From Candidatus Hydrogenedentota bacterium (GTDB lineage Bacteria > Hydrogenedentota > Hydrogenedentia > Hydrogenedentales > CAILVY01): 38,159 bases of DNA. Below are positions 28,907 through 38,086 of the stretch, piece after piece. Where the stretch lies: assembly GCA_903837785.1 (NCBI GenBank), contig CAILVY010000101.1:1-38159 (forward strand), written 5' to 3'. The stretch's first letter is position 1; each line of letters starts with the position of its first letter. The translations under genes and the position numbers were made by a program. Below the pieces are notes generated by a model that worked only from the letters and a program-made list of their open reading frames with translations, was not told where the DNA came from and did no database searches.

Positions 28907-28983
28907 TGGCGTTCCCGGAGGGACTTGAACCCCCAACCTCTTGGTCCGTAGCCAAGCGCTCTATCCAATTGAGCTACGGGAAC
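28907..28983 (-). tRNA. tRNA-Arg (anticodon ACG)
   Basis: On the minus strand the sequence folds into a full cloverleaf. The acceptor stem GTTCCCG pairs with CGGGAAC and the D stem GCTC with GAGC. The anticodon stem CTTGG/CCAAG holds the loop CTACGGA, giving anticodon ACG (plus-strand bases 28947-28949). The T arm is GGGGG-TTCAAGT-CCCTC. The discriminator base is G, and the CCA end appears to be encoded (28907-28909). The recombinase relic lies on its 3' side. Confidence 0.97.
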
Positions 28984-29158: not shown

Positions 29159-30448
29159 CTAGAAGTAATACGAATAACCGAGGCTCAGGCTGTGGGCGGA
29201 GGCGGTGATCTTGGTCCCCTTGCCGAGAAAGCCGAAGATGTCGCCCTGGCCGCGTTCCGTCTTCGAGTTGGGAACGAAGAGCGTGTAGGCGCAGGTGAGT
29301 TCGTGATGTTCGTTGATGCGGTAGCCGAGGCCCGCGCAAACATGCGTGCTGATGATGAGCGGGGCGAGCCCGTGCACGAAGACCTGGTTGTCATCCATCG
29401 GCGTTTTCGCGTACGAAGCGCCGCACATGACGGCCCAGCGTTTGCTCAATTCGTAGTACAGGCCGCCCTTGATCACATGCTGATCATCCCAGCCGAGGCC
29501 GTTCTTGACGATGGAGCGGCCGAACTGGGGGACGCCTGCCCAGTTGAGCCATTTGTAGTCGAGCGCCAGCGCGAGTTTCTTCGTGACGTGGACCGCCAGA
29601 CCGAGTTGAAGCTTCTGCGGGTAATCGAAGCTGCGCGGGAAAAGGTCCTTATACTCCTCGTAAGGGGTCATCCATTGCGGGGTGCTGTACGCGGCGGCCA
29701 GCGAAAAACGCTTCCATTCCTTCAGCACGCCGAACGTCAGGCCGAAGCCGTAGGAGAAGGAGTAGTCCTTCTGGCCGGCGGTCTCCCGGAGCTTGAGGGT
29801 GAGGTGGTCGCTGGTCATCGTCTGAAGATTGAGGTTGAGCGATACCCCGAGGGACCAGCCGTCGCCAAGACGCTTGGCGGCCGTGAACGGAATCCGGACC
29901 CCGTACATGTTGAGGTGATTGTCCCATCGGCGGAGGGTCAGCAGGGGGACAATGCTGCGGGGCTCGGAATAGTTCGTGGTGAGCCCGAACATGGAGTAGA
30001 AGCCCGCGGCGAAGACCACGTGCTTGCCGGGCCAGACGATGCCGGTGTCGCCGCCGCCGATCGGGTGGTCGTCCACGAGTTTGTCCGGGAACGGATTGGC
30101 GGCGAGGCCGTGCGGCTCCAGCGTGCGGTGGACCGTGTAGAAACTCAGCGCCTGATCAAAGCGCCGGTCCAGCGTGGCGATGCCGGCGGGGTTCGTGATG
30201 CTCCACGACGAGTCCATCGGGAGGGCCGAGCCCGCCCCGGCGAGCCCTTTCGAAACGGGGCTGTAACCGACCAGTTCGAAGCCATTCGTCGCATGGACCG
30301 GCGCGGACAGGAGCAGGAGCAGCACGGCGGCGATCCAGAGGGCCGGCGCCCGCCCGGCATTTCGCCCCACGCCCCTCCATCCGGATTGCGCGTTCCGGGC
30401 GGGAAGACAGCAGAGATAACGGGCCACGCCCGCTTGTTTTGTGTACAC
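29159..30448 (-). CDS. FadL/TodX (OMPP1)-family outer-membrane transporter for hydrophobic compounds
   Basis: The 429-residue protein probably starts at the GTG at 30448, preceded by AGAGGAAG. A second GTG ~26 codons later with a GGAGG is an alternative. The hydrophobic signal core (WIAAVLLLLLSAPVHA) comes after an unusually long basic region. The mature N-terminus has the FadL hatch pattern: NGFELVGYSPVSKGLAGAG and then the signature NPAG in SITNPAGIATL. The rest alternates amphipathic beta strands, and the protein ends in LGYSYYF, with the C-terminal Phe expected by the outer-membrane assembly machinery. FadL proteins pass long-chain fatty acids or other hydrophobic molecules across the outer membrane. 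The gene starts 58 bp after the R2lox gene on the same strand, so the two are probably co-transcribed. Confidence 0.9.
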   Translation of the reverse strand: MYTKQAGVARYLCCLPARNAQSGWRGVGRNAGRAPALWIAAVLLLLLSAPVHATNGFELVGYSPVSKGLAGAGSALPMDSSWSITNPAGIATLDRRFDQALSFYTVHRTLEPHGLAANPFPDKLVDDHPIGGGDTGIVWPGKHVVFAAGFYSMFGLTTNYSEPRSIVPLLTLRRWDNHLNMYGVRIPFTAAKRLGDGWSLGVSLNLNLQTMTSDHLTLKLRETAGQKDYSFSYGFGLTFGVLKEWKRFSLAAAYSTPQWMTPYEEYKDLFPRSFDYPQKLQLGLAVHVTKKLALALDYKWLNWAGVPQFGRSIVKNGLGWDDQHVIKGGLYYELSKRWAVMCGASYAKTPMDDNQVFVHGLAPLIISTHVCAGLGYRINEHHELTCAYTLFVPNSKTERGQGDIFGFLGKGTKITASAHSLSLGYSYYF

Positions 30449-30506
30449 GGCTACTTCCTCTCCCCCCGTTGCTGACGCGATGCAGCGTTCTCTGTTTCCC
30501 CGGGCT

Positions 30507-31406
30507 TCAGGCGTCGTCGGCCTGAATGAACGCTTCCGTGTCGTGGTTCACTTCGCTCTCGGACTGCTCAAGCGCCCTGCGAATCCGGTCCAGGCGCTTC
30601 TGGAACTGGGCGGTCCCATAGGCGGCAAATTCCTCCTGGTTCATGCCGAATGGCGCCGGATCGTACGGGGCGAAGATCTCGGAGATCACGCCGAGTGCCG
30701 GCGTAAAGAGCTGGTTCATGGACATCTCGACCACGTCCCACAACGACGGGTCGCTGGCCATGAGGCGGCTCAGGAGGTAGACGCCGTAGGCGATGTGCCG
30801 CGATTCGTCGATCTGGACGCGCCGGATCCCTTCGCGGATGCCCGGGAAGATGCCGAAGCGATCCATGATCGTGAAGTACGCGTGATAGCCCGTTTCGGCG
30901 AGCATGCCCTCGACGATCATGTTGTAGACGCAGGATGCGCGCACCTGGGAGGCGGGCGAGGGATCGCTCCGGAGTGCGTTCAACGCGCCCGGCAGGGCTT
31001 CCTGAATGATGATCCGGTAGTTCGGTGACTGATACGCGCTGAGGTTGGGCGGCGCGTCAAAGACCTCGCTTATCACGCGCGAGAAGAAGTCCACGTGCTT
31101 GGCTTCCTCGAAAAGGAAGCAGGCGAGGTACAGTTCCTCTTCCGTGCGCCCTTCCTGGGCGACGATGTTGATGAGCGGAAGCAAATCGAGCGTGACGGCC
31201 TCTTCGCCCGCCATGAACATGGCGGTGAGCCGGAGCAGGATGTCCTTCTCGTCGGGCTTGAGTCGGCTCCAATCCTCGCGGTCTTGCCGAAACGCAAGTT
31301 CGCTCGGGTTCCACATCCCCAGCTGCTTGGACCGCTCAAAAAGAAGCATGGCCGGGTTGCCCCGGTGCAGCCCCCGCGTTGTCGTTGTGAACGATTTGTG
31401 CCCCAT
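30507..31406 (-). CDS. R2-like ligand-binding oxidase (R2lox), Mn/Fe ferritin-like protein
   Basis: The start at 31406 is set by GGGAGG eight bases upstream, giving 299 residues, normal for R2lox. The four-helix ferritin fold supplies metal ligands at Glu68 (AGEEAVTLDL), Glu101 and His104 (FLFEEAKHVDFF), Glu166 (NMIVEGMLAETGYH), and Glu201 and His204 (DESRHIAYG). Val71 and Tyr161 occupy the places of the Val and Tyr that form the ether cross-link in studied R2lox proteins, numbering within one residue of the mycobacterial protein. True ribonucleotide-reductase R2 proteins lack this pair, and no R1 gene is nearby. Studied R2lox proteins assemble a Mn/Fe cofactor and hold a long-chain fatty acid. 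Their physiological reaction is unknown. The neighbouring FadL gene suggests a hydrophobic substrate. Confidence 0.92.
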   Translation of the reverse strand: MGHKSFTTTTRGLHRGNPAMLLFERSKQLGMWNPSELAFRQDREDWSRLKPDEKDILLRLTAMFMAGEEAVTLDLLPLINIVAQEGRTEEELYLACFLFEEAKHVDFFSRVISEVFDAPPNLSAYQSPNYRIIIQEALPGALNALRSDPSPASQVRASCVYNMIVEGMLAETGYHAYFTIMDRFGIFPGIREGIRRVQIDESRHIAYGVYLLSRLMASDPSLWDVVEMSMNQLFTPALGVISEIFAPYDPAPFGMNQEEFAAYGTAQFQKRLDRIRRALEQSESEVNHDTEAFIQADDA

Positions 31407-31576: not shown

Positions 31577-34135
31577 TTATGCCCAGACAATCAAGGTGGT
31601 CTCGTGTTTCTCGGCCAGATCGGCGTGGTACGGGAGCACGCGCACCGTGAATCCCTGTTGTCCGGTTTCCTTGCAGAGAATGGCGCCTTCAAACCGGAAC
31701 GTATTGTTGCCCAGGCTCTTCGTGCACGTCATCTCCACCGTGTGCCCCTTGGGAATCTGGCCTACGGGATCCAACTCGCCGAAGTAGACCTCGGCCGTCA
31801 CATCCGAGCTGGTCAGCGGGCCCAGAAAGACTTCGGCCGTCACATGCAGGCTGGCGCCCACGGGCAAGCCCTCGGTCGGGCCGCAATCCACGTTGACAAA
31901 ACGAACCTGAGACCAATTCGCGGCGATCTTCTCTTTCCAGTGCGCCAGCACGAGCGCCCGCGCGCGGTTGTTCTCCATGAGCTCGATTCGGCGGGCGGAG
32001 CACGGGATGTACGCGCGGTCCGTGTACTCCTGCACCATCCGGTACGTGTTGAACATGGGGCAGATCGTGCGTATGGCCGCCTTCATCCGCCCAATCCATT
32101 CGCGGGGCAGATTGTCCTGGGTCCGCTCATAGAAGATCGGCACCACTTCCTTCTCGAGGATCTCGTAGAGCGCCTCGCTCTCCACCAGGTCCTGCTCCTG
32201 CGTGCTGTCGTAATTCTCGCCCTTGCCAATGCTCCACCCGTTGTCGCCCAATTGTTCCGCCTCGCACCACCAGCCGTCCGGGATACTGATGTTGAGCGCG
32301 CCGTTGGCGGCGGCCTTCATGCCGCTGGTGCCGCTGGCTTCCATCGGCCGGCGCGGCGTGTTCAGCCAGCAGTCCACGCCCTGAACCATGTAGCGCGCCA
32401 CGTTGAGGTCGTAGTTCTCCAGAAAAACCACGTGATTGCGGACTTCCGGATCGCGCGCGAAATGGATGATCTCGCGGATCAGTTTCTTGCCTTCCGTGTC
32501 CTGCGGGTGGGCCTTGCCGGCCAGGATGAGCTGAACGCGGCACTGGGGATTCGTGAGGATGCGCTTCAGGCGGGCCGGGTCCCGGAGCATGAGCGTGACC
32601 CGCTTGTACGTGGCGAATCGCCGCGCAAATCCGATCGTCAGGATCTCCGGATCGAGGACCTCAACCGTCTGCCGCACCTCCGCGCTGGGCGACGCCCGGT
32701 TCAGCAACTGCTCCCGCAACTGATGCCGCGCAAAGTTCACCAGGCGTTCCCGGCGCCGCTCGTGCGTCCGCCAGAGCTCGGTGTCGGGCACCTCGTCGAT
32801 GTGCCGCCAAATGCTCTGGTCGTCGGGGCGGTTGATCCACTCCGGGCCGAGATAGCGGTCGTAGAGATCGGCCAGGTCGTGCGAGATCCAGGTGCGGATA
32901 TGCACCCCGTTCGTGATCGAGGTGACCGGCACCTCGCTCGACGGGATGTTGCGCCAGGTGCGCGACCACATGTCGCGCGAGACTTCGCCGTGCAGCTTGC
33001 TCACGCCGTTGGCGCCCGCGCTGAGCTTGATCGCGAGCACCGTCATGCAGAACGGCTCGCGCGAGTCGGCGGGATCCTGCCGTCCGAGGGCCAGCAATTG
33101 CTGGAGGCCGATGCCCATGTCCGCGCAGTACTTCCGGAAGTAGTTCTCGACCAGGCCCGGGTCGAACATGTCGTTGCCGGCGGGCACCGGCGTGTGTGTG
33201 GTGAAAAAGCTGCCCGCCTTGACCGTCTCGATGGCCTCGTTGAAGGTGAGCTTGTCGCGGAGCACAACATCCCTCACCCGTTGCAGCGTCATGAACGCGG
33301 CGTGGCCTTCGTTCATGTGATAGACGCTCGGTTCGAGGCCGAGGGCGTGCATGGCCACGACGCCACCCATGCCGAGCATGATCTCCTGCTTGATGCGTGT
33401 TTCGCGGTCCCCGCCGTACAACTGCCCCGTTATTGCGCGGTCCGCGGGCGTGTTGTCTTCATGATCGGAATCCAGCAAGTAGAGCGGCACCCGGCCGACC
33501 TGGCATTTCCAGAGGTACGCCTTGACCATCCGTCCGGGATACTCGACTTCAATCACCAGGGGCTTGCCCGAGGCATCCCGGACCTGTTGGATCGAGATGT
33601 TGTGGAAATCGTTCCGGGGATAGGTCTCCTGCTGCCAGCCGTCCGCATTCAAGTATTGCTGGAAGTAGCCCTCGCGGTAGAGCAGGCCGACGCCGATGAG
33701 GGGGAGGCCCAGGTCGCTCGCCGCCTTGAGGTGATCCCCGGCCAGCACGCCGAGGCCGCCCGAGTAGATGCTGATGGACTCATGGATGCCATACTCCGCG
33801 GACATATAGCAGACCAGAATCTGCTCGGGCGCATGCGGATTCCGTTCGTACCACGTGTGGCCGCCCACATAGCGCTGGAGCTTGTCCCACACCCGGTCCA
33901 GATGGGCCAGGAAGCTGTCATTCTTGGCCAGTTCCTCGAGCCGCACCTGGCTGACTTCCCCGAGCAGGCGGCGCGGGTTTTGATGCACTTTCGACCAGAG
34001 TTCCCGGTCGATGCGGAAAAAGAGCTCGATGGCCTCCGGATCCCAGCACCACCACAGGTTGTCGGCCACGGACAGCAAATGTTCTATGCGCTCCGGCAGC
34101 TTGGGCACCACTGTGTATTTCATCACCCGCGGCAT
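31577..34135 (-). CDS. glgP: Alpha-glucan (glycogen/maltodextrin) phosphorylase
   Basis: The 852-residue protein starts at the ATG preceded by GGGAGGA; an internal Met four codons later is an alternative. Residues ~10-110 form the N-terminal domain of the short phosphorylase type (DUF3417), with DNLWWCWDPEAIELF. The catalytic part has MSAEYGIHESISIYSGGLGVLAGDHLK, written here only in part, then EGHAAFMTLQRVRD, the acceptor region FFTTHTPVPAGNDMF, and the pyridoxal-phosphate site GTSGMKAAANG with Lys607. It belongs to the TIGR02094-like alpha-glucan phosphorylases that release glucose-1-phosphate from alpha-1,4-glucans in the cytoplasm. It is 170 bp upstream of the R2lox gene on the same strand and divergent from nifJ. 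Pairing with pyruvate:ferredoxin oxidoreductase fits storage-glucan breakdown feeding central carbon metabolism. Confidence 0.94.
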   Translation of the reverse strand: MPRVMKYTVVPKLPERIEHLLSVADNLWWCWDPEAIELFFRIDRELWSKVHQNPRRLLGEVSQVRLEELAKNDSFLAHLDRVWDKLQRYVGGHTWYERNPHAPEQILVCYMSAEYGIHESISIYSGGLGVLAGDHLKAASDLGLPLIGVGLLYREGYFQQYLNADGWQQETYPRNDFHNISIQQVRDASGKPLVIEVEYPGRMVKAYLWKCQVGRVPLYLLDSDHEDNTPADRAITGQLYGGDRETRIKQEIMLGMGGVVAMHALGLEPSVYHMNEGHAAFMTLQRVRDVVLRDKLTFNEAIETVKAGSFFTTHTPVPAGNDMFDPGLVENYFRKYCADMGIGLQQLLALGRQDPADSREPFCMTVLAIKLSAGANGVSKLHGEVSRDMWSRTWRNIPSSEVPVTSITNGVHIRTWISHDLADLYDRYLGPEWINRPDDQSIWRHIDEVPDTELWRTHERRRERLVNFARHQLREQLLNRASPSAEVRQTVEVLDPEILTIGFARRFATYKRVTLMLRDPARLKRILTNPQCRVQLILAGKAHPQDTEGKKLIREIIHFARDPEVRNHVVFLENYDLNVARYMVQGVDCWLNTPRRPMEASGTSGMKAAANGALNISIPDGWWCEAEQLGDNGWSIGKGENYDSTQEQDLVESEALYEILEKEVVPIFYERTQDNLPREWIGRMKAAIRTICPMFNTYRMVQEYTDRAYIPCSARRIELMENNRARALVLAHWKEKIAANWSQVRFVNVDCGPTEGLPVGASLHVTAEVFLGPLTSSDVTAEVYFGELDPVGQIPKGHTVEMTCTKSLGNNTFRFEGAILCKETGQQGFTVRVLPYHADLAEKHETTLIVWA

Positions 34136-34274: not shown

Positions 34275-34414
34275 GGGACGTTTTTGGAAGCGGATTTCCG
34301 CCGCCGCGGCTTCCCAGCAGTGGCGGTTTCGTCGTGATTCAGGGATTTCGCGTGTCTTTCCGTTCTTGCCGCTTTTGGAGAGCGGAGGGCCGCGCCTTGT
34401 GTTTTTTCGGTATC

Positions 34415-34431
34415 GCGCCGGTTTCCGGCGC
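34415..34431 (+). promoter_or_regulatory. Perfect hairpin in the nifJ leader
   Basis: GCGCCGG (34415-34421) and CCGGCGC (34425-34431) form a 7-bp G+C stem with a TTT loop, 31 bp before the nifJ ATG and just upstream of its SD (GGAG, 34451-34454). It could be an operator, an attenuator-like stem or a leader stabiliser. Confidence 0.4.
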
Positions 34432-34462
34432 TGTTTGCAGCCACAAGTTTGGAGTGTCAAGC

Positions 34463-38086
<3,624 letters not shown>

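Follow-up and report, generated by a model that had tools for sequence, protein, structure and literature searches.

An R2-like ligand-binding oxidase gene paired with a FadL-type channel gene in one genus of Hydrogenedentota, and the associations of R2lox in other lineages

We describe here a pair of genes in a 38,159-nucleotide stretch of DNA from a Candidatus Hydrogenedentota bacterium (the window; contig C101 of a 7.29 Mb genome), in which a gene for an R2-like ligand-binding oxidase (R2lox) is followed on the same strand by one for a FadL-type outer-membrane channel. For R2lox, a widespread Mn/Fe oxidase, documentation of the natural substrate is thin and consists of one crude-lysate study, and the pair had been predicted to import and oxidize a specific hydrophobic molecule. 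We show that the pair, which is limited to one genus, combines two known families in a new arrangement and does not constitute a novel type of system; FadL is an optional extra to the role of R2lox, gained at the level of the genus. The SCP2, ADH, ALDH and ferredoxin context of R2lox in other lineages appears, by analogy, to be a better answer to the substrate question than the pairing with FadL.

The two genes and their layout

The oxidase gene (30507-31406, minus strand; ATG 31406 to stop 30507, 299 aa) was assigned by family model, solved structures and alignment, and its sequence identifies the product as a bona fide R2lox. The protein matches the NCBIfam model NF006202 'R2-like ligand-binding oxidase' with 416 bits (E 7e-125), 100 bits above the equivalog cut-off of 315 bits, and the closest solved structures are the M. 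tuberculosis R2lox 3ee4 (E 2e-61) and Geobacillus 4hr0. Its metal ligands E68, E101, H104, E166, E201 and H204 align with E69, E102, H105, E167, E202 and H205 of GkR2loxI, the predicted Val/Tyr ether cross-link pair V71/Y161 aligns with V72/Y162, and the pocket tyrosine Y175 of GkR2loxI is Y174 in the window protein. The six ligands and the Val/Tyr pair, eight active-site residues in all, are invariant across 89 aligned R2lox loci, except for three truncated rows at the last two residues. The original prediction of a complete R2lox with all metal ligands and Val71/Tyr161 is thus borne out by the family score and the alignment. No signal peptide is evident in the 299 residues. In one MAG (G013 C19; L018/L070) the R2lox copy is broken by an in-frame TAA, reflecting either decay or a sequencing error.

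The second gene (29159-30448, minus strand; GTG 30448 to stop 29159, 429 aa) was assigned to the FadL/TodX-type outer-membrane channels for hydrophobic compounds from PF03349, sequence matches and fold. The barrel scores 50.1 bits against PF03349 (FadL/OMPP1/TodX; gathering cut-off 29.7), its sequence matches include CymD, TbuX and TodX, and it carries an NPA hatch motif at residues 86-88. In Foldseek, the solved folds that best match its AlphaFold2 model (mean pLDDT 84) are those of TbuX, TodX and E. coli FadL (E 1e-28 to 1e-26, TMt up to 0.77). Judged from sequence and model, the product is a real FadL/TodX-type barrel with a predicted role in transport, and the FadL-type porin had rightly been called complete. 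A Shine-Dalgarno-like GGGGGGAGAGGA lies ~7 nt upstream of GTG 30448; an alternative start near 30370 is possible because the signal-peptide core begins later than this GTG, and the gap to R2lox would then be ~136 bp.

The order of genes on the minus strand is alpha-glucan phosphorylase, R2lox, FadL-type barrel and tRNA-Arg. The gap from the R2lox stop to the FadL start (30449-30506) measures 58 bp, and the operon-like layout originally described therefore holds at that spacing if GTG 30448 is the start. A scan of these 58 bp found neither a sigma-70-like promoter nor a minus-strand terminator, which is weak evidence of a shared transcript; the two genes look like a two-gene unit and may be co-transcribed. 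The unit is bounded by tRNA-Arg(ACG) (28907-28983, minus strand), 175 bp downstream of the FadL stop. Upstream, the alpha-glucan phosphorylase gene (TIGR02094, GlgP; 31577-34135, minus strand) ends 170 bp before the R2lox ATG; it is missing beside the pair of the congener described below and is therefore context and not part of the unit. Within 6 kb of the window R2lox there are no genes for ADH, ALDH, ferredoxin, a ligase or SCP2. The genome contains four PF03349 loci, and by chance a given gene would be followed immediately by a FadL on its own strand with a probability of ~3e-4, a figure that ignores the pair having been noticed after the fact. Elsewhere in the window, a pyruvate:ferredoxin oxidoreductase-like ORF (34334-38086, plus strand) has a probable frameshift, its last ~90 residues (near 37790-38086) being R-rich and looking wrong-frame by eye.

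Distribution of the pairing

In the genomes sampled, R2lox and FadL do not recur as a module across diverged lineages. R2lox is present in 17 of 68 genomes of the phylum, and the FadL genes of these R2lox genomes were located by family search and with a profile built from 22 correct-frame relatives of the window FadL. FadL adjoins R2lox in 2 of the 17, namely the window genome and G001 (locus L031), the only other sampled species of the same genus. The original prediction had looked to recurrent adjacency in diverged genomes for support, which was not found, and would have fallen had no other R2lox genome a FadL neighbour; G001 has one, with different flanks. Its pair has the same order and strand as that of the window, with a gap of 69 bp (versus 58 bp) and identities of 71% for R2lox and 54% for FadL, whereas the FadL paralogues within the window genome reach only 33-35% identity to the window FadL. 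The G001 contig lacks GlgP, the FAD oxidoreductase and other genes of the window, and the pair has no other clear neighbour in common between the two species. In G001, R2lox is divergent from a GlpD-diacylglycerol-kinase-like fusion gene, an alpha/beta hydrolase gene follows FadL, and an ALDH gene 4.8 kb from R2lox is the only ADH-, ALDH-, ligase- or redox-type gene nearby. The fusion gene (L031:7264-9894, minus strand) encodes a glycerol-3-phosphate-dehydrogenase-like FAD protein joined to a diacylglycerol-kinase/YegS domain. A gene in common between the left end of the window and contig C207 of G001 was rejected as synteny, the likeness being due to repeated calcium-binding-like (by eye, dockerin/EF-hand-like) motifs.

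Beyond this genus the pairing was not recovered. The same-family genome G002 has R2lox (64% identity), and no FadL of the window type was found in it. Three further samples covered the phyla to which L044 (deposited as Acidobacteria), L046 (Bacteroidetes) and L045 belong, and none of their 46 R2lox genomes has FadL within 100 kb of R2lox; where the two genes share a contig outside Hydrogenedentota they are 146-450 kb apart, with 146 kb the nearest. Six sampled R2lox genomes of Chloroflexota or Actinomycetota contain no PF03349 gene, and many R2lox genomes lack any FadL. In the plasmid collection R2lox occurs only in Actinomycetota and haloarchaea. At a tip of the R2lox tree the two FadL-adjacent rows group as sisters (100/96), a placement indicating that the adjacency is one recent gain.

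Each gene is also found in varied company. FadL of the window subfamily occurs in 38 of the 68 phylum genomes and is common where R2lox is absent, with varied and mostly unrelated neighbours, and the genes that follow other R2lox genes encode PD40 propellers, an Mrp ATPase, DinB and an ABC-2 permease. Elsewhere in the order, two species of a single genus (L059:8657-9937, minus strand; L057:1762-3039, plus strand) encode a conserved, signal-peptide-bearing PD40 beta-propeller-like protein 60-105 bp after R2lox on the same strand; this pairing is likewise at genus level and shows that such pairs arise easily. Two species belonging to one genus (L066:9440-9988, minus strand; L067:1543-2091, plus strand) have a gene for a DinB-like (DinB_2) protein 9 bp after R2lox. 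Proteins of ~425-440 aa directly after R2lox in G004, G012 and G010 were considered, by size, as diverged FadLs and rejected, since these are PD40 propeller-like or Mrp-type ATPase proteins.

Associations of R2lox in other lineages

R2lox can no longer be said to lack any reported reaction, since a 2024 study described GkR2loxI (GK2771) from Geobacillus kaustophilus as a Mn/Fe alkane monooxygenase (PMC10867098). This organism degrades alkanes, crude GkR2loxI lysate lowers C10-C22 alkanes, and the gene clusters with ALDH, ADH and beta-oxidation genes and with the alkane-inducible P21 (PMC10867098); the latter report also precedes the FadL pairing as a genomic clue to the substrate, so that the pairing is not the first, as had been proposed. 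Activity is only partly lost in the E202A/H205A metal-ligand mutant (PMC10867098), and the evidence for alkane oxidation, from crude lysate and a partial mutant effect, is modest. R2lox also co-purifies with a long-chain fatty acid that is seen as substrate-like, and desaturase or oxidase roles have been discussed (PMC4118035).

Other phyla connect R2lox with the lipid carrier SCP2. In the Bacteroidota sample an SCP2 domain is fused N-terminally to R2lox in 18 of 23 R2lox genomes and adjacent in one more; among six closer R2lox of the Acidobacteriota sample it is fused in two and adjacent in three more; and in Thermoactinomycetaceae SCP2 lies 65-1078 bp upstream of R2lox at all four loci. The R2lox fused to or directly preceded by SCP2 in Bacteroidota, Acidobacteriota and Bacillota are those of L118-L136, L139, L150, L151, L153, L154, L157-L159, L047:9505-9930, L049:8504-8929, L148:3590-3991, L146 and L156, together with the plus-strand fusion L046:9443-10825. 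Pfam SCP2 scores above its cut-off in six of seven fused or adjacent proteins scanned; the seventh, L046, shows SCP2 only by our own profile and by fold, its model matching R2lox structures and, in the N-terminal part, sterol carrier protein 2 (2cx7, TMt 0.84). The gene order in Paludifilum is SCP2, ADH, R2lox, ALDH. None of the papers searched joins 'R2lox' with 'sterol carrier', and the link may nonetheless have been reported already. Proteins of 629-631 aa beside Bacteroidota R2lox were rejected as one conserved partner, being MnmG in L046 and AMP-binding, acyl-CoA-ligase-like in L153. SCP2 was rejected as a neighbour of R2lox in Hydrogenedentota, where none was found by profile although most of these genomes encode SCP2 elsewhere, and associations of SCP2, ADH, ALDH or ferredoxin type are absent beside R2lox at the Hydrogenedentota and Chloroflexota loci examined.

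Plasmids of Actinomycetota provide a second set of associations. Rhodococcus plasmids carry R2lox with an NDMA-dependent ADH, a ferredoxin-reductase-like NAD(P)/FAD oxidoreductase and a ferredoxin (R. opacus pROB01, L181:4783-12201; further clusters L180 and L183), to which pROB01 and pRB11 add an ALDH, an SCP2 of a different subfamily and a fatty-acid-CoA ligase. The Mycobacterium plasmid pMyong1 (L182) carries R2lox, a homologue of the Rhodococcus SCP2 protein, an acyl-CoA ligase and an ADH. From their predicted products the Rhodococcus clusters are complete-looking sets for hydroxylation, dehydrogenation and CoA activation with candidate redox partners. By analogy, the SCP2 and Rhodococcus associations independently support hydrophobic-molecule oxidation by R2lox, and the SCP2 link is probably the most useful lead on its substrate. 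Within the 6 kb around it, the window R2lox does not lie in an oxidation cluster of the Geobacillus/Rhodococcus type, with ADH, ALDH, acyl-CoA ligase and redox partner. On a Haloferax mediterranei plasmid (L184:6064-11686) an R2lox homologue (30% identity) precedes genes for a quinone-oxidoreductase-like protein, ACP, ketosynthase, holo-ACP synthase, malonyltransferase and FabG, an archaeal cluster that is lipid-synthesis-like.

Possible roles of the pair and comparison with known systems

The reading that we prefer, tentatively and with rather less than even confidence, is a lineage-specific bicistronic pair for import plus oxidation that was added in this genus. The FadL-type barrel would pass a long hydrophobic molecule (an alkane, fatty alcohol or fatty acid) across the outer membrane, the cytosolic Mn/Fe R2lox would use O2 to hydroxylate or otherwise oxidize a C-H bond of the imported molecule, and the products would enter the cell's general fatty-acid metabolism, whose genes lie elsewhere. 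In E. coli, AlkBGT needs FadL as octane importer in order to oxidize octane (PMC4822313), and the FadL-like AupA serves alkane uptake (PMC5989066), precedents that make import plus oxidation the most likely reading. The gene identities, the intact active site, the FadL fold and the retention of the pair in a second species with different flanks are established; we infer co-transcription, the identity of the substrate, C-H oxidation in this organism and any transfer, physical or metabolic, from the channel to the oxidase. The general role of R2lox would likewise be carried over from other lineages, from GkR2loxI acting on alkanes and from SCP2, ADH, ALDH, ferredoxin and acyl-CoA-ligase neighbours. 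Thus, of the prediction that the pair imports and oxidizes a specific hydrophobic molecule, the general tie of R2lox to such oxidation stands as plausible through other lineages, and the recurrence with FadL does not. Against import plus oxidation are the single recent origin, the R2lox of G002 without a FadL of this type and the frequency of related FadLs without R2lox; the position of FadL in the outer membrane, two compartments away from an R2lox with no signal peptide; and the lack of ADH, ALDH, ferredoxin, ligase or SCP2 genes nearby, together with the crude lysate and partly active mutant of the GkR2loxI study.

Because there is one origin, no nearby redox partner or ADH/ALDH set and a difference in compartment, chance adjacency is nearly as likely: R2lox and FadL would be independent genes that were joined once in the ancestor of the genus and have stayed together through the short time elapsed. 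The restriction to two species, the FadL subfamily's frequency and mostly unrelated neighbours, and the equally varied genes after other R2lox fit such an account, but the pair is intact, same-strand and closely spaced (58 and 69 bp) in two congeners whose FadLs have drifted apart to 54% identity and which have no other clear neighbour in common, and the prior for FadL directly 3' of R2lox is low. Alternatively, and in our view unlikely, the genes may share a regulon and no pathway, with a lipid or membrane-stress signal driving both while R2lox modifies an internal lipid (e.g. as a desaturase- or hydroxylase-type enzyme) and FadL merely imports fatty acids. The co-purified fatty acid and the desaturase proposal (PMC4118035), the ACP, KS, FabG and malonyltransferase genes of Haloferax and the GlpD-diacylglycerol-kinase-like gene divergent from the congener R2lox are in keeping with this, whereas the degradation-type sets (ADH, ALDH, acyl-CoA ligase, ferredoxin) of Rhodococcus, Mycobacterium, Paludifilum and Geobacillus speak for uptake followed by catabolism. 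It is highly improbable that the barrel assists outer-membrane assembly or secretion in the manner of BamG or PorV and is thereby uninformative on R2lox substrates, as its weak best NCBIfam matches to BamG (28.5 bits) and PorV (20.8 bits), and the Bacteroidota BAM and T9SS barrels in its fold search, are set against cut-offs of 250 and 90 bits, much better TbuX/TodX/FadL fold matches (E 1e-28 versus 1e-13) and the NPA hatch motif.

Import plus oxidation may also belong to a wider scheme, which we regard as doubtful, in which R2lox would serve as terminal oxidase in a modular pathway for hydrophobic substrates, with a delivery part that differs between lineages, the window holding a Gram-negative version made of import plus Mn/Fe hydroxylase. 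In Bacteroidota, Acidobacteriota and Bacillota this delivery part would be an SCP2 carrier encoded next to R2lox or within the same protein; in Rhodococcus, an SCP2 of the second subfamily, accompanied by ferredoxin, ADH, ALDH and acyl-CoA ligase; and in this genus of Hydrogenedentota, the FadL channel. As gene associations the SCP2 and Rhodococcus links to R2lox are strong, and FadL as a functional stand-in for SCP2-type delivery is a guess. Recurring partners for hydrophobic molecules (SCP2, FadL, ADH/ALDH, acyl-CoA ligase and ferredoxin) make the substrate question open to direct assay: each SCP2-R2lox fusion is one polypeptide in which both lipid binding and lipid oxidation can be tested, and the Rhodococcus clusters indicate redox partners for a reconstituted reaction.

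Among known systems, the M. tuberculosis R2lox (3ee4, 4ac8) is the best sequence match of the window protein among solved structures and has the same cofactor ligands and Val/Tyr pair, in a host whose envelope is unlike that of the window organism. The barrel shares its fold with FadL, TodX and TbuX, and has the NPA hatch motif and PF03349 domain of the FadL/TodX/TbuX/AupA channels, but is only 14-17% identical to solved members in the fold search and is paired with R2lox rather than with a toluene or alkane oxygenase. The pROB01 and pRB11 clusters resemble the window in placing R2lox within a gene set suited to hydrophobic-molecule oxidation; they differ in carrying ferredoxin, NAD(P)/FAD oxidoreductase, ADH, ALDH, SCP2 and acyl-CoA ligase genes and no FadL, and their R2lox is only ~40% identical to that of the window. 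GkR2loxI, for which alkane activity is reported, differs in its ADH, ALDH and beta-oxidation genes, which do not adjoin the window R2lox, but belongs to the same family with all eight active-site residues in common. In both cases the gene for a putative uptake protein for hydrophobic compounds adjoins R2lox, namely P21 in Geobacillus and, in the window, a true Gram-negative FadL barrel.
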